NCBI GenBank assembly: GCA_944392985.1
Contig: CALXYL010000002.1
Span: 62,001-126,000, forward strand
Origin: an uncultured Spirochaetaceae bacterium
GTDB taxonomy: Bacteria > Spirochaetota > Spirochaetia > Sphaerochaetales > Sphaerochaetaceae
Length of the DNA stretch: 64,000 nt
Direction of reading: 5' to 3'
This document shows, one piece after another, positions 46,478-55,402 of this stretch (position 1 is its first letter; each line of letters begins with the position of its first letter). A program made the translations under genes and the position numbers. Below the pieces are notes generated by a model, which saw only the letters and a list, made by a program, of their open reading frames with translations, was not told the origin of the DNA and searched no databases.

Positions 46478-47368
46478 TCAAGAGAAAAGATCCGGTACAT
46501 TGCCTGCACGCTTGACATGGGGCACAAGGCGCCGCAGATCCCTGTCTGATGAATATGTCAGCGCCCCGCTCTCCACGCGCATCCTGGACCAGGTGTAAGA
46601 AGGAACGGAAAGCATCGAGGAAGAGAGCATCGCGCGCCCTCCTGCCGTGAGAACCTTATCAAAGACAGCCCATGCAGGTCCCCCGTCCTTCTCCTCTGTC
46701 AGCAGTACCGCGCTGGATATGGATGCGGTGAAGCTATTGCGTATCATGACAAGCCAGCGCTCCATATGCATGGAAGGAGGAAAGACTGAAAGAAGCAGGC
46801 CTGTGGAGAATATGCGGCTCTGAAGCGGCGCGTCGGATGCGGAACAACGCGAGAGAGGCCCTGAAAGGGATGCGATCACCCTGCCTCCATCTGCGAGGAC
46901 CTTCTCTGCGGCATATGCCGGTATACCATCATCAAGAGTCGTAAGGACTGTTACGCCATGCTTCACGAAATAGGAAAGGGCCTCCGATGTATCATGTCGT
47001 CCCTGCATGGACGGCTTTGGCATTCCGACAAGTGTCACGCGCTCTCCGCTAAGAAGGGAAAGATCACCGGCTGCATAGATCACGGGAAAGCGTTCTCCCT
47101 TCTGCTCAGGGAAATCCGGGGATTCCGGGAAGAGTATCCTCGAAGGTATGCGCTCAGCCATGAATGCGTCAGCAACAGCCATGCGCACCTCGATCAGCTT
47201 ATCCCGGCTGCATCCGACGACCTCCCCTAGCGCTTCTGCCGCATCATCAAGAGGGCGTTCAGGATCAGGAAGGGCCATTGTCAGCCTGTATGCCCGCTCC
47301 CTCTCCCCCGTCAGTATCGCAAGAGCCTCATAATTTGCAGCTCTTTCCTTATCTCCGGTCATAGACAT
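46478..47368 (-). CDS. Divergent DprA/Smf-like protein
   Basis: The 296-residue protein has the general layout of DprA: a helical N-terminal domain (about residues 15-75) and a Rossmann-like domain beginning VTLVGMPKPS. It contains ALSYFVKHGVTVLTTLDDGIP, a late IRNSFTASISSAVLLTE corresponding to the DprA RNRIIAGLS...VVVEA region, and GGRAMLSSSM. The usual SGxAxGID and SxxxxEYP motifs are not conserved, and the winged-helix end is short. DprA loads RecA on incoming single-stranded DNA. This version may have lost DNA binding or be specialised. It overlaps panE by 10 bases and is followed by alaS. Start 47368, with GGAGG 10 bases upstream. Confidence 0.6.
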   Translation of the reverse strand: MSMTGDKERAANYEALAILTGERERAYRLTMALPDPERPLDDAAEALGEVVGCSRDKLIEVRMAVADAFMAERIPSRILFPESPDFPEQKGERFPVIYAAGDLSLLSGERVTLVGMPKPSMQGRHDTSEALSYFVKHGVTVLTTLDDGIPAYAAEKVLADGGRVIASLSGPLSRCSASDAPLQSRIFSTGLLLSVFPPSMHMERWLVMIRNSFTASISSAVLLTEEKDGGPAWAVFDKVLTAGGRAMLSSSMLSVPSYTWSRMRVESGALTYSSDRDLRRLVPHVKRAGNVPDLFS

Positions 47369-48252
47369 CTGCGCTTCGCCTCCAGGAGAATCGAGGAGAA
47401 ATCGCAGAACGGCGTTGGAATGGAATGCTTCCTTCCCAGCCGGGAGACTGCTCCTGCAAAGAACCTGTTCTCTGTTTCCCTGAGTGCAAGGACATCCTGC
47501 AGCATCGATGTCTTTCCATGATCGCGGAGCGCTGTCACCCTCCTGATCATCTCCTCCACATCTTCCTGATCAAGGACAATGCCCTCAGCTTCCCCTACCC
47601 GCTGCACTTCCCTAGCAATGAGCCTTACAGCCCTGATGAAGTCAGTATTGCCAGAGATAGCGGCGTAATCAGCGACAAGTATCGCAGAAAGGGTGTTGAA
47701 GCAGGTGTTGAGCATGAACTTCCACCACTTCTCATGGAGTATATCCTCCGGCACGGTGCATTTCTGGCCTGCTTCTGCAAACAGGGAGCGTATTTCCTCC
47801 ACCCTTTGGCTCACGCGGTTGTCCTTCTCCCCGAACACGATCATGCCGCCGTCGGAGAAACACGTCGTTTCTATCCCATCATGCACTGATGAGAGATCGG
47901 TTATGAATGCATAGAGCACCGCTTCGCTTCCGAATGCCGCCTCAAGCTGCCCCTCCGCCTCGATTCCATTGAGAAGCGACATGACAGAGGTTTCACTGCC
48001 GATGAAAGGACGCGCCTCCTCGATGGCATCCGGGAGATCCATGTTCTTCACCGCGAATATGACCAGATCCGCAGTATCCGCATCCGCAGCGCTTCTCAGG
48101 CTGAATGGAATGCGCTCCCCATTGACGATAAGGCCATCCGCATAGCGGGCCTTCCTCTCTTCATCCACTATGAATGCAGTATCCGCTTTCCTGTATAACT
48201 TCCAGGCAACGACAGCTCCGACTGCCCCTGCCCCTACGATCCGTACCCTCAT
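47359..48252 (-). CDS. panE: 2-dehydropantoate 2-reductase (ketopantoate reductase family)
   Basis: The 297-residue NADPH-dependent reductase has N-terminal Rossmann motif MRVRIVGAGAVGAVVAWKL, VIFAVKNMDLPDAIEEARP, LLNGIEAEGQLEAAFG, and the catalytic lysine region DILHEKWWKFMLNTCFNTLSAIL. It reduces ketopantoate to pantoate for CoA synthesis; some paralogs act on other 2-oxoacids. Start taken at ATG 48252, where the Rossmann motif begins. TATCCT (48265-48260) is 7 bases upstream, with no Shine-Dalgarno. Confidence 0.88.
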   Translation of the reverse strand: MRVRIVGAGAVGAVVAWKLYRKADTAFIVDEERKARYADGLIVNGERIPFSLRSAADADTADLVIFAVKNMDLPDAIEEARPFIGSETSVMSLLNGIEAEGQLEAAFGSEAVLYAFITDLSSVHDGIETTCFSDGGMIVFGEKDNRVSQRVEEIRSLFAEAGQKCTVPEDILHEKWWKFMLNTCFNTLSAILVADYAAISGNTDFIRAVRLIAREVQRVGEAEGIVLDQEDVEEMIRRVTALRDHGKTSMLQDVLALRETENRFFAGAVSRLGRKHSIPTPFCDFSSILLEAKRRCL

Positions 48253-48259
48253 AGGATTG

Positions 48260-48341: not shown

Positions 48342-49598
48342 ATGCTTCTGGCATTGCACTGCATCCTTTCCCTGATACTTGCCTGGAACGTGAGCGCCGC
48401 GATTCCCGCTTTCCTGCGTCCGCGTTTCAGCTCCAGACTCTCAGCGGTGCTAAGGACTGTGCTGCTGTACCTTCTCTGCCTCTTCCCGATCATACCGGAT
48501 TTCGCATCGACATACCTTGTCTCATTCGCGGCATTCGCAATATACCTCCTGGCTTTCTACAGCGAGCGAAAGGAGAAAACCGCAGCATTCTCCGTCATCT
48601 TCTTCTCGATCATCGGATCCTGGTCATACCTGTCATCATGGTGGATACAGCGCATCACAAGCGGTGGAATACCATTCGTGATGTCATTGCTGGTCGCTTC
48701 ACTGCTCATCATCCTCTCTCTGCTCTACTTCAGCATCTTCCGCGTTCATTTCAAGCAGGTTTCAGAGAGCATGCTCCTGGATTCATTCACATCAAGGATG
48801 TGGAATTACGCGACGATTGTGGCAGTTACGCCATCGGCGCTCGTTCTGACCCTCGTCGCCTCCCCTCCCACGAACATCCTGTTGCAGCAGGCGATGGCAT
48901 TCCTTGCAATCGGCGTCTCCACAGTCATATTCCCTCTTCTCTACCAGATGGGCCGCAGCGCGAAGCTATCGGAAGAGAACTCAAGGCTCAAGGTACGAGC
49001 GCAGTTCTATCAAGGCATCGAGCAGCAGCAGAATGAGATAAGGAAGATGAAGCATGACCTCATGAACCATCTCACTGTCATAGCCACATATATTGATCTG
49101 GGAGAGAGCGAGAAGGCCATGGATTACCTCAAGGAAATCGGTGCGAAGTTCTCCGAGATGACTGAGCAGTATACGCCTAGCACACTTCTCAACGCGATCC
49201 TCAACTCAAAGCGGCAGAGGGCGCTGATGGAAGGGATCACGCTTGAGATAAAAGCGGACATGGACAGGCGTCCTGCAATAGATGAGATGGATCTCTGCAC
49301 GCTCGTCGCCAACTCTCTCGACAATGCGATTGAAGCATCTCCTCCTGACAAGATGATCCGCCTTGAGCTCATACTTGATGGATCCAGGCTCCTCTATACG
49401 ATCTCCAACAGTTACGTGCGGAAGATCCAGAAGCAGGCGGACGGCTCCTATATCTCATCAAAGGATGACAAAGCCAACCATGGCATCGGCATAAGGAGCA
49501 TGGAGGAAGCCGTGTCAAGGATGGGAGGCAGGATGGACATAAGCGCACATGATTCGGTTTTCCGCCTCGAAGCAGTCATTCCTGTGGGGAATCCATGA
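48342..49598 (+). CDS. AgrC/DpiB-like sensor histidine kinase with GHKL ATPase
   Basis: The 418-residue protein has about six N-terminal membrane segments (residues 1-200). A dimerisation helix (RKMKHDLMNHLTVIATYIDLGE) bears the phosphorylatable histidine of the SpoOB-like/AgrC type. The ATPase lobe carries ANSLDNAIEASPP, NSYVRK and HGIGIRSMEEAVSRMGG. Such kinases normally sense peptides or small molecules and pair with LytTR or similar regulators. Here the next gene, overlapping by 4 bases, is a second kinase of YesM type followed by a YesN regulator, so the partner is uncertain. The start ATG 48342 follows a -10 box by 6 bases. The longer open frame starting at 48303 has no support. Confidence 0.85.
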   Translation: MLLALHCILSLILAWNVSAAIPAFLRPRFSSRLSAVLRTVLLYLLCLFPIIPDFASTYLVSFAAFAIYLLAFYSERKEKTAAFSVIFFSIIGSWSYLSSWWIQRITSGGIPFVMSLLVASLLIILSLLYFSIFRVHFKQVSESMLLDSFTSRMWNYATIVAVTPSALVLTLVASPPTNILLQQAMAFLAIGVSTVIFPLLYQMGRSAKLSEENSRLKVRAQFYQGIEQQQNEIRKMKHDLMNHLTVIATYIDLGESEKAMDYLKEIGAKFSEMTEQYTPSTLLNAILNSKRQRALMEGITLEIKADMDRRPAIDEMDLCTLVANSLDNAIEASPPDKMIRLELILDGSRLLYTISNSYVRKIQKQADGSYISSKDDKANHGIGIRSMEEAVSRMGGRMDISAHDSVFRLEAVIPVGNP

Positions 49599-51283
49599 AA
49601 CGCAAAGGTACGCTGAGAAGCCGGCTGATACTCTACTTCCTCTCTGTCGTGATGATTCCCTTCATCCTCTTCATCTCATTCTATCTCATCTCCGGCGACA
49701 GCGCCCTTGAATCAATGCTTTCACGCCAGGCAGAGATGCTCATCGCCTCCGATGCCCAGAGCATAGGCTCAGTCATAGAAGGCTATAGGCACAAGCTCTA
49801 TCTCGCAGCCTCCAACCAGAGCATACAGCAGGCAATCGCAGCAGGGCGTCAGCCAACTGGCGATGAGGCCAGGGACATCAATTCCACTCTTTACACAATC
49901 ATGTCTGGTGACACTTATCTTGCGGCGCTGTCGATCATCTCATCGGACGGAAGCGTGAGACTGTCCACGCACAGCTTCCCGCAGAAGTATGATCTGAGAA
50001 GCCACAGCAATGCGTGGGATGAGACGAATATACTCTATCTTGCCCAGAAAGAGGAAAGGAACGGCAGATCATGGTTTCTTTCGATCTCTGATCACAGGAC
50101 GGAGAATGGCTATCAGGTCGCATTCTCCATACTGCGCTGCATCACGCAGGGTGGCAGGGACATAGGCTACGCGATAATCGATGTCTATTCTGAAGCGATC
50201 ACACCGCGCCTTGAAAGCGGCGGCTTCTTCTCAGACCTCATCCTCACCGACAGCTCAGCCGATGTCGCCTCATCGCTTCTGCATCCACAGCGCTTTGGCC
50301 CTCTCTCCTCTTTCCCAACGCTGAAAGGCAATGACATCGCACTCCGTCCGATCAATGGCACCAGCCTGATGCTGGTAGGAAGGATCCGCAGCGATATGCT
50401 CTCGGAAAGCCTCGATTCCGCTGTCCTGTACCTATCGATAAGCCTCGCGGTGGGAATCATGATCTCAATCATGCTTGCCTTTCTGTTCTCCAGATCAATA
50501 TCGAAGCGCTTCTCGATGATCAGCTCAGGGATGAGGCGCTTTGAACGCGGCGACTTCAACACGAAGCTGGAGAGTACAGGGATCCGGGAATTCGATTCCC
50601 TGGCTCTGGCATTCAATACGATGGTACAGCGCATCGAGATGCTCATAGATACCGCCAGGGAGGAGGAAGCCAAAGCCGCAGAGGCGGAGAGGAAGGCGCT
50701 TGAAAGCCAGATGAATCCGCACTTCCTCTTCAACACGCTGTCAACCATCAAGGCACTGGCAAGGCTGCACGGAGAGGAGGAGATCTACACCATCGCTGTC
50801 AGGCTCGGCCGCCTTCTTCGCTACAGCATCGACAACCATGTACCATATGCGACGATAAAGGAATCGCTTGACCTGGCGGAAAGCTATCTCATGATCCAGC
50901 ACATCCGCTTCGGAAGCCGCCTTTCATACACCATCAGCTGCCCGCAAGAGCTGCTCGAGGCGATAACGCCGCGCCTGATAATACAGCCATTGGTGGAGAA
51001 TGCCGTCATGCACGGACTCGAAGGCAAGACAGGAAACTGGGAGCTGCTGATATCAGTGCGGGATGAAAAAGAACAGCTCGTAATCGAAGTGGAGGATAAT
51101 GGCATAGGCTTTGATCCACCTCCCGACCTGCATCAGCTGGAAAAGGATGGCCATACCGGCCTTTACAACACGAAAAGACGCCTTGAGCTGCGTTATGGCA
51201 GGAGCTTCTCATTCTCAATCCATTCTGAGAAAGGAAGGGGGACGAAAGTCTCGCTATCCCTGCCGCTGGAGGAAAAGGAATGA
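49595..51283 (+). CDS. YesM-type sensor histidine kinase
   Basis: The 562-residue kinase has transmembrane segment 1 at about residues 9-31, an extracytoplasmic sensor to about 275, and segment 2 (LSISLAVGIMISIMLAFLF). HAMP (RSISKRFSMISSGMRRFERGDF) is followed by a coiled coil rich in glutamate and alanine, the histidine motif MNPHFLFNTLSTIKAL, and an ATPase with ENAVMHGLEGK, DNGIGFDPP and GLYNTKRRLELRYG. The pattern is that of sugar-responsive YesM proteins. Both ends overlap neighbours by 4 bases (ATGA), so all three signalling proteins are made from one mRNA. Confidence 0.93.
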   Translation: MKRKGTLRSRLILYFLSVVMIPFILFISFYLISGDSALESMLSRQAEMLIASDAQSIGSVIEGYRHKLYLAASNQSIQQAIAAGRQPTGDEARDINSTLYTIMSGDTYLAALSIISSDGSVRLSTHSFPQKYDLRSHSNAWDETNILYLAQKEERNGRSWFLSISDHRTENGYQVAFSILRCITQGGRDIGYAIIDVYSEAITPRLESGGFFSDLILTDSSADVASSLLHPQRFGPLSSFPTLKGNDIALRPINGTSLMLVGRIRSDMLSESLDSAVLYLSISLAVGIMISIMLAFLFSRSISKRFSMISSGMRRFERGDFNTKLESTGIREFDSLALAFNTMVQRIEMLIDTAREEEAKAAEAERKALESQMNPHFLFNTLSTIKALARLHGEEEIYTIAVRLGRLLRYSIDNHVPYATIKESLDLAESYLMIQHIRFGSRLSYTISCPQELLEAITPRLIIQPLVENAVMHGLEGKTGNWELLISVRDEKEQLVIEVEDNGIGFDPPPDLHQLEKDGHTGLYNTKRRLELRYGRSFSFSIHSEKGRGTKVSLSLPLEEKE

Positions 51284-52032
51284 GGAAGCTGGGAGCTGTC
51301 ATCGTCGAGGATGAGGACCTCATAATGAAGGAGCTGCTCATCTCGATTCCATGGGATGATCTCGGGATAGGGATACTCGGCACTGCAGACAACGGGCTGG
51401 ATGGAGAGAGGATCATCCGCTCGCTCGATCCTGACATCGTGATAACAGACATCAGGCTGCCGGGGAAATCAGGGCTCGACATGCTCGAGGACACCGCCTC
51501 GGAACACGGCATCATCCTTTCAGGATACACGGACTTCTCCTATATGCAGAAGGCCATCAGGCTCGGAGTATTCGACTACCTGCAGAAACCGGTTGATACA
51601 GATGAGATGATCGCTTCGCTCGAGAAGCTCTGCACGATGATAGCCCAGGATGAGACAAGCCGCACAGGGCTCTCGCTGAGCGGGGATGAGATCAGGCTTC
51701 CAGACAACATCACAGATCATGCCGTCAAGCGTGCAATAGCCTGCATACAGGAGAAATACGCCTCCTCAATAGGGCTTCAGGACATAGCGGTTGCCGCTAA
51801 CGTCTCCGAGAACTACATCTCCACGCTCTTCAGGGAGAAAACAGGGATGAATTTCCTGCAGTATCTCAATATCGTGAGGATCAACAAGTCGCTTTCACTG
51901 CTTCGGAACACAGGCATGAACATCTCCGAGATTGCTTCGGCAACAGGCTTCCCTACCCCCGGGTATTTTACAAGGATATTCCGCCGCTTCATCGGTGTAA
52001 CGCCTTCAGAATACCGCAATTCCCGCCCATGA
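51280..52032 (+). CDS. YesN-type response regulator with AraC domain (short)
   Basis: The 250-residue protein has a receiver (LGAVIVEDEDL, phosphoacceptor D57 in DIVITDIRLPGKSG, lysine in YLQKPVD) joined by a short linker to an AraC double helix-turn-helix (IGLQDIAVAANVSENYISTLFREKTG and ISEIASATGFPTPGYFTRIFRRFIG). It lacks the long middle region of the other YesN-type protein at 28539-30047. It probably activates the convergent sugar ABC operon ending at 52089. Confidence 0.93.
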   Translation: MRKLGAVIVEDEDLIMKELLISIPWDDLGIGILGTADNGLDGERIIRSLDPDIVITDIRLPGKSGLDMLEDTASEHGIILSGYTDFSYMQKAIRLGVFDYLQKPVDTDEMIASLEKLCTMIAQDETSRTGLSLSGDEIRLPDNITDHAVKRAIACIQEKYASSIGLQDIAVAANVSENYISTLFREKTGMNFLQYLNIVRINKSLSLLRNTGMNISEIASATGFPTPGYFTRIFRRFIGVTPSEYRNSRP

Positions 52033-52036
52033 AGGA

Positions 52037-52062
52037 TCCTTCCCCTCATGCAAGGGGAAGGA
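52037..52062. terminator. Hairpin between convergent response-regulator and permease genes
   Basis: TCCTTCCCCT and AGGGGAAGGA form a perfect 10-bp stem with loop CATGCA. There is no T run on either side, so termination would be weak or factor-assisted. Confidence 0.5.
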
Positions 52063-52088
52063 AAGGGAATATCATGCAAGGAGATATC

Positions 52089-52964
52089 TCAGCCTTTGCG
52101 TGAATCGTAGACAGCGGCTCCTCCAAGGAAGTACCTGGACAGTGTGAAGAAGAGGATGAACATCGGAATCGAGGCAAGGAAGGCGCATGCCATCATGGCA
52201 CCCTCATCGGTCATCTTCTCCTCGCTGAACTTCGTGATGTACTGCGGTATCGTCTTCATCGCCTCGCTCTGGGCAACAAGAAGAGGCCAGAGGAGGTTAT
52301 CCCACTGGTTGCGGAATGAAAGGATACCGAGAGTCGCGATGACAGGCTTGGAATTCGGAAGAACGATGCGGGCATAGATCCCCGGTTCTGAAAGCCCATC
52401 TACCCTTGATGCATCAAGATACTCCGATGGGAACGTCAGCAGGTACTGCCTCATCTGGAATACACCGAAAGCAGATACCAGGAACGGGATGATGAGACCA
52501 CGGTATGTGTTTATCATGTTCATCCCGGAGACAACCATGTAGAGCGGGATCATGATTGCTTCAAACGGGATCATCATCGTTGACATGATCGCCAGGAAGA
52601 TGAAATTGCGCCCCTTGAAGCGGAACTTCGCAAGTCCATAGCCGCACAGCGATGCAAGAAGCACTGTCGTGACGCTATCCGTGACTGCTATGATCAGCGA
52701 ATTGAGCAGGTTGCGGAAGAACGTCGGATTGTTGTTGTTCCCCATGATCGCGCGGTAGAAGTTGGTGAAGAATGTCCTATCCGCTGATGTGAAATACTCG
52801 CTTGATGGTATCCACGTGAACGGCATCGCCAGTATCTGCTTGGAATCCATGAAGGAGGCGACCATCATGAAGATGATCGGGAATATCGTGAACAGAAGGA
52901 CTGCGATGAGGATTATCCATATGATGACTTCCCATACAGTGACTTTTCCTACGAATTTGTTCAT
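52089..52964 (-). CDS. Carbohydrate ABC transporter permease (MalG-type)
   Basis: The 291-residue protein has six membrane segments and the EAA loop EYLDASRVDGLSEPGIYARIVLPNSKPVI. Start taken at ATG 52964, 6 bases after GGAGG, rather than an in-frame ATG 8 codons earlier inside the MalF gene. It is the last gene of a three-gene importer without its own ATPase, which must be supplied by a shared sugar ATPase elsewhere. Confidence 0.92.
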   Translation of the reverse strand: MNKFVGKVTVWEVIIWIILIAVLLFTIFPIIFMMVASFMDSKQILAMPFTWIPSSEYFTSADRTFFTNFYRAIMGNNNNPTFFRNLLNSLIIAVTDSVTTVLLASLCGYGLAKFRFKGRNFIFLAIMSTMMIPFEAIMIPLYMVVSGMNMINTYRGLIIPFLVSAFGVFQMRQYLLTFPSEYLDASRVDGLSEPGIYARIVLPNSKPVIATLGILSFRNQWDNLLWPLLVAQSEAMKTIPQYITKFSEEKMTDEGAMMACAFLASIPMFILFFTLSRYFLGGAAVYDSRKG

Positions 52965-52974
52965 ACAGCCCTCC

Positions 52975-53898
52975 TCAATACTCGACATCCTCGCTCGACC
53001 GTGTCAGTCGGAGCTGGATATAGGTGAACAGGAGCATTATCAGGAAGAGGACAATCGACATGGCACTCGCCCTTCCGAGGCGGCCGTTCCTGATACCCGT
53101 GAAGTAGATGTTCATCGTTATAACGTCAATCGGGAATCGCGATGAGCCTCCCTGATAAAGCATGTACTGCGTACTGAATGTCTTGAGGCACTGGAGCATA
53201 GCCATGATGGAAACCATAGCTGTCGTTGGCTTCAGCAGAGGAAGCGTGATACGCCAGAAAGTGTGCCACCTTGACGATCCATCAACAGTCGCCGCTTCGT
53301 ATATCGTGTTCGGTATGGATGCAAGCCCTGTTATGAAGAGGATCACGAAGTATCCTATGTATTTCCAGAAATAGATCATCATCGTCGATATCTGGAGCAT
53401 CGTCGAATCGACAAGCCAGTTGTAATCGACACCCGATGTATGCATCACGAAATTCGATATCTGATTCATCAGACCACGAGGATCGAAGATGATCATCCAG
53501 ATCGATGCAGCGACAACGGACGAAAGAACAGCCGGTGTATAGTACATCAGCTGGAAGAAGCCCCTGTACTTATCCTTCCTGAGCTGCATCAGGAATACTG
53601 CAACAATAAGGGATGCGATGATCATCGGTATGAATGTACCGATGGTGAAAATCAGGGTTGCCCTGATTGAGTTGGACAGAGGGAATCCCCCATTGTCCTT
53701 TGTGAAGATATAGACATAGTTCTCCAAACCGACGAATTCGCTCGTCCTTGCAATGGCGCGGCGATTCGTCAGGGAGGTTATGAACGCATTGATGATTGGA
53801 TAGAAGCTGAAGATAGCGAAGAACACAAGGCACGGTATCGTGAAGATAAGGCCCCACTTCGCCTGCTTTCGCTCGATGCTATAGGTTTTTCTTCCCAT
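52975..53898 (-). CDS. Carbohydrate ABC transporter permease (MalF-type)
   Basis: The 307-residue inner-membrane protein begins with YSIERKQAKWGLIFTIPCLVFFAIFSFYPI, and the EAA loop is NTIYEAATVDGSSRWHTFWRITLPLLKPT. AGGAGG stands upstream. It forms the channel with the MalG-type protein. Between it and the binding-protein gene lies a strong hairpin. Confidence 0.92.
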   Translation of the reverse strand: MGRKTYSIERKQAKWGLIFTIPCLVFFAIFSFYPIINAFITSLTNRRAIARTSEFVGLENYVYIFTKDNGGFPLSNSIRATLIFTIGTFIPMIIASLIVAVFLMQLRKDKYRGFFQLMYYTPAVLSSVVAASIWMIIFDPRGLMNQISNFVMHTSGVDYNWLVDSTMLQISTMMIYFWKYIGYFVILFITGLASIPNTIYEAATVDGSSRWHTFWRITLPLLKPTTAMVSIMAMLQCLKTFSTQYMLYQGGSSRFPIDVITMNIYFTGIRNGRLGRASAMSIVLFLIMLLFTYIQLRLTRSSEDVEY

Positions 53899-53919
53899 CC
53901 GCTCGGACCTCCTAAATGA

Positions 53920-53945
53920 GGGATGCCCGTGTTGCCGGGCATCCC
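53920..53945 (-). other. Intercistronic hairpin between binding-protein and permease genes
   Basis: GGGATGCCCG and CGGGCATCCC form a perfect 10-bp stem with a 6-base loop, 8 bases after the binding-protein stop and without a U-tract on the minus strand. It occupies the same position as the hairpin at 25268-25293 in the other sugar operon. Confidence 0.75.
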
Positions 53946-53952
53946 GTTGTCA

Positions 53953-55248
53953 TCAGGCCTCTTCCAGGATTTCCTGGCAGTTTGCCTTCAGGTCGCGATA
54001 GGCCTGCTCCGGTGTCACGCCCTGGAGCATGACTGCCTCGACAGCATTCCTCAGCTGGGCCTGGAACTCTGCACTCGCTGCACCGTAGTAAACAACATGG
54101 CCTCTCTCGAAGTCACCAAGGAACACTTCTGAGTACGGCATGTTCTTGTAGGCCTCAGACTCCATGAGCTCCTTTGTAGGCTGGATGAGCTGGACTTCCG
54201 TCAGATACTCCTCACCATGTGAGAGCATGTATCCGATAAGTTCCCAAGCTGCCTTCTGCGTAGCCTCATCGGCATCTGCATTGACCATGTAGTAGTGGCC
54301 ATAATAGCAGGCTGCTACATCATTGACTGCATCCTCGAATACCGGGAACGGCACGACCATCCACTCTCCGGAATCATAGAACTCAGGGTTATCTGCCTTG
54401 ATCCTTGCTTCCTGATAGAGACCTGTGGTCGCCATCGCGATATCATTGTTGTCCTTGTTGAAGAGCGAACGTGCGTTCGTATAGGTCGGAGAACCAAGGT
54501 TGAGTCCGTTCGGGCCCCACTGCTGCATGAATGTAAGGACCTTGATCCATGCCTCTTCGCCGATGATAGCCTCTGTTCCATCATCGCTTACAAGCTGACC
54601 GCCAAGCTGCTCCACCATAGGAACGAGGGTCTCAAGATAGTACGGATAGCGGAAATCATAGCCGCGGCGTACGAGGATGTCGCCATCCCTGATCACGAGC
54701 TTCTGGGAAAGCTCTACCATATCCTCCCATGTCCTTGGATAGTCTGTCTCAGGATCGAGGCCGGCATCGCGGAATACCTTCTTGTTGATGAAGATACACC
54801 AGTTGGTGAGCTCAAGAGGAAGGCCATAGACTTCTCCGTCATATGTGACTGGATCGATCATGCCATCGAGATATGCATCCTTGACGGACTGGGCATCGGT
54901 GAATCCCGCAGCCTCATAATCCATAGGAGCAACACGGCCAGCAACGATATACGGATACTCATCGCTGATCGAGAGGTTGAACATCGTCGGGCCCTCGCCT
55001 GCTGCAAACGCTGTCTGCACAAGCTCGATGAGCTTTGTCGATGCCTGTCTTGTGACATTGACAGTCACATTCGGATGCTCTGCCATGAACTCCTGGATAT
55101 AACGATCCTCAAGAGCCTGCCTGTTGACATCCTCATGTGTCCAGAACTCTATGACTATCTGATCATTCGAGCTGCCCTCTCCAGCTCCACCTGCGAAAAG
55201 TGACAGCGCTGTCATAAGCGCAAGAAGAAGCGCCAATGCTTTCTTCAT
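53953..55248 (-). CDS. Extracellular sugar-binding protein of ABC transporter (family 1)
   Basis: The 431-residue protein has a signal peptide (MKKALALLLALMTALSLFA) followed by GGAGEGSS with no lipobox cysteine. The mature region starts IVIEFWTHEDVNRQALEDRYIQEFMAEHPNV, typical of family 1 sugar binders, and GEVYGLPLELTNWCIFINKKVFRDAG lines the ligand cleft. Start chosen at ATG 55248 behind AAGGAGG; the open frame extends 23 codons upstream without support. It leads the second sugar importer, regulated most likely by the kinase/regulator set at 48342-52032. Ligand unknown. Confidence 0.92.
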   Translation of the reverse strand: MKKALALLLALMTALSLFAGGAGEGSSNDQIVIEFWTHEDVNRQALEDRYIQEFMAEHPNVTVNVTRQASTKLIELVQTAFAAGEGPTMFNLSISDEYPYIVAGRVAPMDYEAAGFTDAQSVKDAYLDGMIDPVTYDGEVYGLPLELTNWCIFINKKVFRDAGLDPETDYPRTWEDMVELSQKLVIRDGDILVRRGYDFRYPYYLETLVPMVEQLGGQLVSDDGTEAIIGEEAWIKVLTFMQQWGPNGLNLGSPTYTNARSLFNKDNNDIAMATTGLYQEARIKADNPEFYDSGEWMVVPFPVFEDAVNDVAACYYGHYYMVNADADEATQKAAWELIGYMLSHGEEYLTEVQLIQPTKELMESEAYKNMPYSEVFLGDFERGHVVYYGAASAEFQAQLRNAVEAVMLQGVTPEQAYRDLKANCQEILEEA

Positions 55249-55336
55249 AAAGACCTCCTTGTCTTGTTTTTTTCCTTCTGCATCTATGATTCTCAGCCGG
55301 AGGAAGCAAGCAGGCAATGGACGATTCTTCCGCTTT

Positions 55337-55355
55337 GTTGAACAAATTTCTCAAC
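55337..55355. promoter_or_regulatory. Imperfect dyad upstream of the sugar-binding protein gene
   Basis: GTTGA-N9-TCAAC (with AAATTT at the centre) lies about 90 bases upstream of the binding-protein start, in the 190-base gap that also holds the lipoprotein terminator. It could be a regulator site, but spacing and symmetry are weak. I find no clear promoter in this gap. Confidence 0.25.
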
Positions 55356-55368
55356 AGGGTTCTGAACA

Positions 55369-55402
55369 GAAAAAGAAAGAGCGCCCCATTTCCGGAGCGC
55401 TC
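55369..55402 (-). terminator. Intrinsic terminator of the lipoprotein gene
   Basis: On the minus strand GAGCGCTCC-GGAAAT-GGGGCGCTC (9-bp stem, one G-T pair) is followed by TTTCTTTTTC. It is almost identical to the terminator at 56116-56144. Confidence 0.88.

Follow-up and report, generated by a model that had tools for sequence, protein, structure and literature searches.

Sensor kinases of the AgrC (with AgrA) and BlpH/ComD types, labelled HPK10, have a multi-pass membrane amino-terminal half, an SPOB_a-like helix and a HATPase_c_5 domain; YesM/YesN systems, as known from Bacillus, join a kinase with HAMP and His_kinase domains to a regulator made of a receiver and an AraC-type helix-turn-helix (HTH). 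Here we describe a locus in which both kinds of kinase are encoded by one set of overlapping genes, at positions 48342-52032 of a 64,000 nucleotide stretch of an uncultured Spirochaetaceae bacterium (assembly GCA_944392985.1, contig CALXYL010000002.1, positions 62,001 to 126,000; hereafter the window): an AgrC-type GHKL kinase gene overlaps a YesM-type kinase gene, which in turn overlaps the gene for a YesN-type response regulator. Kinase-regulator pairing is usually read from gene neighbourhood, by which these three overlapping genes would look like a branched pathway; among relatives, however, the parts are separable. On balance we favour the reading that two independent signalling units share one operon, the GHKL kinase being a neighbour of YesN and not a second input to it.

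Passages of PubMed Central (PMC) article PMC9638458, in which the HPK10 label is used for AgrC/BlpH/ComD-type kinases, describe operons of Streptococcus equinus in which a single regulator is accompanied by 2-4 sensor kinases; the extra kinases in those passages are apparently of the same kind, whereas the present locus combines two kinase families, one of them separable. Pneumococcal TCS07 and TCS09, both YesM/YesN systems, are listed with carbohydrate roles in part of PMC11034029, where the role of TCS09 is not confirmed by the paper's own data. The YesM and YesN proteins described here have the same domains as these systems but differ from them in that, in one clade, yesM begins within the end of an unrelated kinase gene. 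According to PMC10384115, the CuaDSR two-component system of Ruminiclostridium cellulolyticum lies beside a second solute-binding gene and drives a sugar ATP-binding cassette (ABC) importer, and PMC8895600 raises the possibility of orphan kinases signalling through non-cognate regulators. A search of open-licence PMC papers listed none on the three-gene arrangement itself.

The three overlapping genes

The genes and their Pfam domains, all on the plus strand, are:

48342..49598, +, GHKL kinase P0001, AgrC-type, 418 amino acids (aa): membrane amino-terminal half, SPOB_a helix and HATPase_c_5
49032..49160, +, SPOB_a helices (dimerization and histidine phosphotransfer, DHp) of the GHKL kinase, residues 231-273, from Pfam and conservation across 26 orthologs
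49053-49055, +, codon of the presumed phospho-acceptor His238 of the GHKL kinase
49281..49583, +, HATPase_c_5 domain of the GHKL kinase, residues 314-414
49595..49598, +, ATGA, GHKL stop and YesM start
49595..51283, +, YesM-type kinase P0002, 562 aa: HAMP, His_kinase and HATPase_c
51280..51283, +, ATGA, YesM stop and YesN start
51280..52032, +, YesN-type response regulator P0003, 250 aa: receiver and AraC-type HTH

Both junctions are 4-base ATGA overlaps (49595-49598 and 51280-51283), as a preliminary description of the locus had it; the three genes presumably lie on one mRNA, and the overlaps probably couple their translation. P0002 exceeds the curated Pfam cut-offs for HAMP, His_kinase and HATPase_c (with a dCache_1 match below threshold in its sensor part) and P0003 those for Response_reg and HTH_18, so that a PF06580 kinase adjoins a receiver-AraC regulator. 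P0001 matches HATPase_c_5 at 63.7 bits (cut-off 22) and SPOB_a at 36.4 bits (cut-off 28.1), and HATPase_c barely above its curated cut-off. Its helix has the H-x4-H arrangement noticed at the outset (H238-DLMN-H243), and from knowledge of the family we take His238 to be the phospho-acceptor.

An AlphaFold2 model of P0001 from a 26-row alignment (mean predicted local distance difference test score, pLDDT, 81; predicted template-modelling score, pTM, 0.54) has about seven long helices in the amino-terminal half (residues 2-24, 32-50, 54-72, 77-106, 112-142, 151-173 and 179 to about 203), followed by the phosphorylation helices. The helices between residues 2 and 203 would be membrane helices, leaving no large extracellular domain, and the model looks like seven such helices where six membrane segments had been proposed. 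AgrC proves to be the nearest named relative by structure, the closest PDB match of the model being the AgrC kinase module (6e52, E 2e-8); the AgrC/DpiB-like label holds to that extent but not by family model, P0001 scoring far under the cut-offs of the DcuS, DpiB and AgrC models of NCBIfam. No agrB or agrD was found by Pfam among nine window genes (short peptides and the rest of the genome were not searched). A search of phage records gave 53 matching records, none over more than 80% of the query, the 20 listed being 22.7-31.9% identical.

Distribution and linkage in related genomes

Our search set comprised 139 genomes of the family, including 48 of the window's genus, which we infer to be Candidatus Ornithospirochaeta from the named records carrying kinase orthologs (Candidatus Ornithospirochaeta stercoripullorum, Ca. 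O. stercoravium, and uncultured Spirochaetaceae/Spirochaetales); the assembly around the window has 1.96 Mb in 39 contigs and is 95.9% complete. Close orthologs of the GHKL kinase occur in 26 of the 139 genomes, all within the genus (26/48), and are 44-66% identical over the whole protein, the remaining family matches reaching at most 31%. Extended to 84,980 species genomes, the scan gave 25 orthologs, all of this kind, after which homologs drop to 19-30% identity.

Directly behind the GHKL gene lie: i) YesM-YesN in 11 genomes (G000, G040, G041, G052, G053, G056, G061, G063, G064, G070 and G075), with a GHKL/YesM overlap of 4 bases in 10 and of 11 bases in G075, a recurrence because of which the junction is not a matter of chance; ii) the gene for a membrane protein of about 400 aa in 8 genomes (G035, G038, G042, G043, G044, G045, G047 and G071), overlapping the GHKL stop by 4-14 bases, so that overlap with the next gene is not special to YesM; and iii) other genes in 7 genomes (G034, G037, G039, G046, G051, G054 and G073). 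The membrane protein (for instance at L034:9242-10438, and in relatives) had no Pfam match in the one member scanned, and elsewhere in the 48 genomes only weak matches to it occur (G055, E 1e-8; a second place in G042, 9e-4).

At a threshold of E≤1e-60, YesM orthologs are present in 22 of the 48 genus genomes, of which 11 have them joined to the GHKL gene, 6 carry the GHKL gene unlinked, and 5 are GHKL-free; 9 of the 26 GHKL genomes have no YesM ortholog at that threshold. Counted by linkage, 15 of the 26 GHKL genomes are without a linked YesM and 11 of the 22 YesM genomes without a linked GHKL ortholog. The convergent YesM-YesN/importer module is present in all 22, bearing out YesM and YesN as a pair, and all 11 unlinked YesM-YesN pairs face a set of genes in the order SBP2-permease-permease-SBP, where SBP is the importer solute-binding protein and SBP2 a second such gene (two of these sets are cut by a contig end). 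In 11 genomes YesM-YesN and the importer have no GHKL ortholog linked to them, so the parts are separable; and as some relatives have the GHKL kinase and no switch, and others the reverse, the stray sensor is probably no more than a neighbour of that switch.

In the kinase tree the 11 joined genomes and G037 fall on one side of a branch with support 93/89 (below the program's 95/80 star), and the distinction between joined and not joined amounts to two label changes, for which one origin and at most one loss are therefore enough. The three-gene arrangement is real and confined to one clade; the hunt for the same order elsewhere, recommended in the preliminary description, thus yielded 11 genomes but a single clade.

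SBP2, between the importer and YesN, is found in 19 of the 22 YesM genomes, where it is 43-50% identical to the importer SBP; it resembles in position the second solute-binding gene of CuaDSR and, by that analogy, may serve YesM as an accessory sensor in the way that CuaD serves CuaS. Unlike CuaDSR, the window genome (gap 52033-52088), G040 and G075 have no SBP2. As a separate observation, the importer proteins encoded in the joined genomes share 75-96% identity with those of the window, versus 57-66% for their kinases, and the SBPs of G073 and G043 share 94-96% with the window's SBP (G043 over a part) versus about 50% for YesM, which suggests exchange of the importer part (52089-55248).

A conserved element before the importer

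The importer faces the three-gene operon on the minus strand:

52089..52988, -, ABC importer permease, MalG/UgpE type, facing the regulator operon
52975..53898, -, ABC importer permease, MalF/UgpA type
53953..55248, -, importer solute-binding protein, SBP_bac_1, sugar type by family
55289..55317, -, promoter-like TTGCCT - 17 bp - GAGAAT, with -35 at 55312-55317 and -10 at 55289-55294
55312..55346, -, 35-bp conserved element, candidate YesN operator (binding putative), its last six bases being the -35 hexamer

The 35-bp element, with consensus TTTGTTCcAgAAAgCGaAAaAATcaTCCATTGCCG, precedes the importer in 21/21 YesM-YesN genomes tested (11 joined and 10 unlinked; G030, the 22nd YesM genome, has its importer start cut off and stands outside this count). 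A matrix was built from 20 importer sites, which score 34.7-50.4 bits. With a leave-out matrix the window element scores 43.1 bits (next match 8.7; best of 10 shuffles 12.2), and the G043 element, never in the matrix, scores 45.4; 169,625 bases of other window-genome stretches hold no match above 14 bits. The four importer-bearing genomes without a YesM match at the above threshold (G031, G032, G058 and G059) are also without the element, and one of them, G059, has a 39% YesN-like gene. An element before the GHKL gene or before unlinked YesM was rejected, the best upstream scores being 5.2 for the 26 GHKL genes and 8.4 for unlinked YesM (11 genomes), against the range given above for importer sites.

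TTGNNN closes the element in the first 20 sites (13 of them with TTGCCN), and after a further 17 bp comes GANAAT (10/20) or GACGAT (5/20); in G053 the pattern lies one base off, G060, G065, G068 and G072 differ, and the -35/-10 spacing is kept in most relatives. A generic consensus scan did not pick up the importer promoter. The layout is that of an activator site adjoining the -35 hexamer; YesN may bind there, and the element is a specific candidate operator through which a YesN-type regulator may act on a sugar importer. With the module in 22 genomes and the element in every genome tested, it is very probable that YesN controls the facing importer, as had been supposed. A terminator-like hairpin of the upstream gene (55379-55402) lies just before the element; hairpins of this kind are no more frequent in this region than chance predicts.

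Kinase helix and receiver positions

We considered eight presumed contact offsets on the first DHp helix, taken from other kinases. In the GHKL kinase, H+4, +7, +8, +11, +12 and +15 are identical in 26/26 genomes whatever the neighbour, and the listed offsets H+16 and H+19 vary. Comparison of the joined genomes with the 14 others (G037 set aside) gives five fixed differences over the whole GHKL protein, one of them in the DHp region (residue 231); the DHp region also has one fixed difference from the sister clade alone.

Between joined and unlinked genomes the DHp region of YesM has two fixed differences in 91 positions (H+7 and H+34), and the YesN receiver differs at residues 5, 14, 15, 76 and 107, of which 14 and 15 presumably correspond to V13 and L14 of RR468 (aligned on the acidic pair). 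The title of PDB entry 4jav names V13 and L14 among rewired positions. The YesM and YesN differences fit YesM as the partner of YesN, the numbers being small and drift being possible. The comparison of kinase helix and receiver proposed at the outset showed six presumed GHKL contact positions invariant and few changes in YesM and YesN. A shift of the joined-clade YesN toward a LytTR-like surface was also considered and rejected, the sequences showing no resemblance when compared by eye.

LytTR regulators and the GHKL kinase

Outside the genus, 27 of 34 GHKL open reading frames (ORFs), from 34 more distant loci, lie no more than 400 bp from a LytTR regulator gene of the same strand, and one of the 34 has a weak YesN-type match; the nearest distant homolog, in Emergencia timonensis, directly follows a LytTR gene. 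Unlike AgrC/HPK10 systems, none of the 26 orthologs has a LytTR match on its contig, and a linked LytTR partner was rejected on this count. The preliminary description had named, as grounds against its own reading, relatives with the GHKL kinase elsewhere beside a LytTR-type partner of its own: GHKL genes without YesM-YesN do occur, but no such partner accompanies them. Within the window's family, 15 stretches carry more distant GHKL paralogs, with LytTR beside the kinase in 8 and not in 7; orphaned kinases of this kind are therefore not unique to P0001. LytTR proteins are the usual partner class of this kind of kinase, and the studied GHKL kinase has most likely lost its LytTR partner.

Proposed mechanism and alternatives

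Because i) the parts are separable, ii) the GHKL helix positions are invariant, iii) the element stands before the importer and not before the GHKL gene, and iv) the LytTR partner appears lost, we read the locus as a self-sufficient circuit with an orphan GHKL kinase in front. In the first unit, which looks like that self-sufficient circuit, YesM would phosphorylate YesN, and YesN would activate the importer promoter from the element at 55312-55346. The second unit would be the AgrC-type GHKL kinase beside panE, its LytTR response regulator gone. The YesM-YesN-importer module would have moved directly behind the GHKL gene in the common ancestor of a single Ornithospirochaeta clade. The GHKL kinase most likely acts via another partner than YesN; if so, its coupling with YesM-YesN would be one of expression.

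The chief alternative, possible but not probable, is that YesN, in the joined clade, is also phosphorylated or dephosphorylated by the GHKL kinase, and two unlike sensors would then feed one regulator, much as the branched or antagonistic input of the preliminary description. Several-kinases/one-regulator operons like those in the S. equinus passages cited above (PMC9638458) offer a precedent, and the possibility follows from a junction that has lasted across the clade (the tight overlap is kept in 11 genomes) and from the lack of any other evident free regulator. A number of observations weigh accordingly against two independent units. First, the junction persists in 11 of the 12 genomes of the clade despite kinase identities to the window protein of only 57-66%, a stronger persistence than genes indifferent to one another should show. 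Second, a search of the window genome with Pfam models found 17 response regulators over cut-off and 22 HATPase_c matches, and 17/17 of the regulators lie within about 3 kb of a kinase, with 16 kinases in all, one YesM on contig C12 standing beside two short regulators; as each regulator has a nearby kinase, no other free regulator is evident except one of the C12 tandem pair, P0001 is left without a regulator of its own, and no alternative partner of the GHKL kinase was identified. Third, the GHKL DHp region has 6/44 fixed differences from the deeper clade alone, and other helix positions (H+2, +3, +5, +6, +9, +13, +17 and +18) vary too, mostly conservatively; the invariant positions show at most an unchanged partner class, not which partner. 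Fourth, the YesM DHp differences are no denser than those of its sensor part (25/296), so that drift is possible.

The remaining five HATPase_c matches of the census lie at C3:44933, C6:26408, C3:4054, C21:6648 and C4:3501, four of them of GyrB/MutL/HSP90-type size. The C12 locus (L219 5850-8990) is a mirror case in its own right, with two short receiver-AraC regulators in tandem and a single YesM-type kinase near an ABC importer.

Against a GHKL input to YesN stand the GHKL genomes without YesM (9) or with YesM unlinked (6), the YesM-YesN genomes without GHKL (5; 11 when those without linkage are counted), the identity of the six presumed contact positions in joined and orphan contexts, the absence of the 35-bp element upstream of the GHKL gene, and the usual pairing of the GHKL family with LytTR, another class than YesN; we therefore do not follow the preliminary description on this point and retain two independent units as our preferred reading.

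A more far-reaching version, which we regard as rather unlikely, is that the LytTR-less AgrC-type kinase has been re-plugged clade by clade, to the membrane protein or to YesM-YesN, and in the window's clade has become a true second input to an AraC-type regulator, a rewiring across regulator classes. The orphan, joined and unlinked loci constitute a natural before/after series for asking whether operon capture precedes rewiring.

We consider it very unlikely that the GHKL kinase has as its partner an unlinked response regulator of the LytTR class, with which it ancestrally paired. The LytTR neighbours of GHKL ORFs outside the genus are in its favour, as are some LytTR match in 22 of the 26 ortholog genomes and the LytTR regulators without a close kinase in G034, G047 and G051; against it, G037, G046, G056 and G075 have no LytTR match (these assemblies are incomplete), the sole LytTR match of the window genome is a 143-residue protein without a receiver, and LytTR proteins of the genus lie beside other GHKL paralogs in 10/30 loci. 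In G039 and G054 the LytTR regulator is beside a GHKL paralog, and G037 and G046 have none; two or three other matches are unpaired in G037 and G039, part of them at the ends of contigs, and in G046 and G054 an additional regulator adjoins a complete pair. Pairing the response regulator and HATPase_c tables by eye, we found no kinase-less regulator recurring across the seven orphan genomes compared.

That the GHKL gene is a decaying or neutral passenger without function, as its differing downstream neighbours between clades might suggest, is extremely unlikely given that the 26 ortholog matches have no internal stop (the G043 match is divided over two contigs), all match both SPOB_a and HATPase_c_5 (E≤0.001), and keep His238, Asn324, Asp327 and Asn328 invariant.

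Upstream neighbours of the GHKL gene

The gene divergent from the GHKL gene is:

47359..48254, -, PanE/ApbA-type reductase gene, start codon chosen in this analysis (within a listed ORF that starts at ATG 48354)

panE was detected near the kinase gene in 24 of 25 relatives, adjoining it in 23 and about 5 kb off in G052, and was undetected in G042; dprA and alaS are each present in the kinase stretches of 21 of the 25. Kinase-free genomes gave 17 dprA stretches (from 17/22 genomes), 16 of them with dprA beside alaS and 9 also with panE. Because dprA and alaS, in part with panE, stand together in kinase-free genomes, this site probably predates the kinase gene, which would have been added later. 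In G052 (L055 12240-17442) the GHKL-YesM junction is intact while the GHKL-panE gap has reached about 5 kb.

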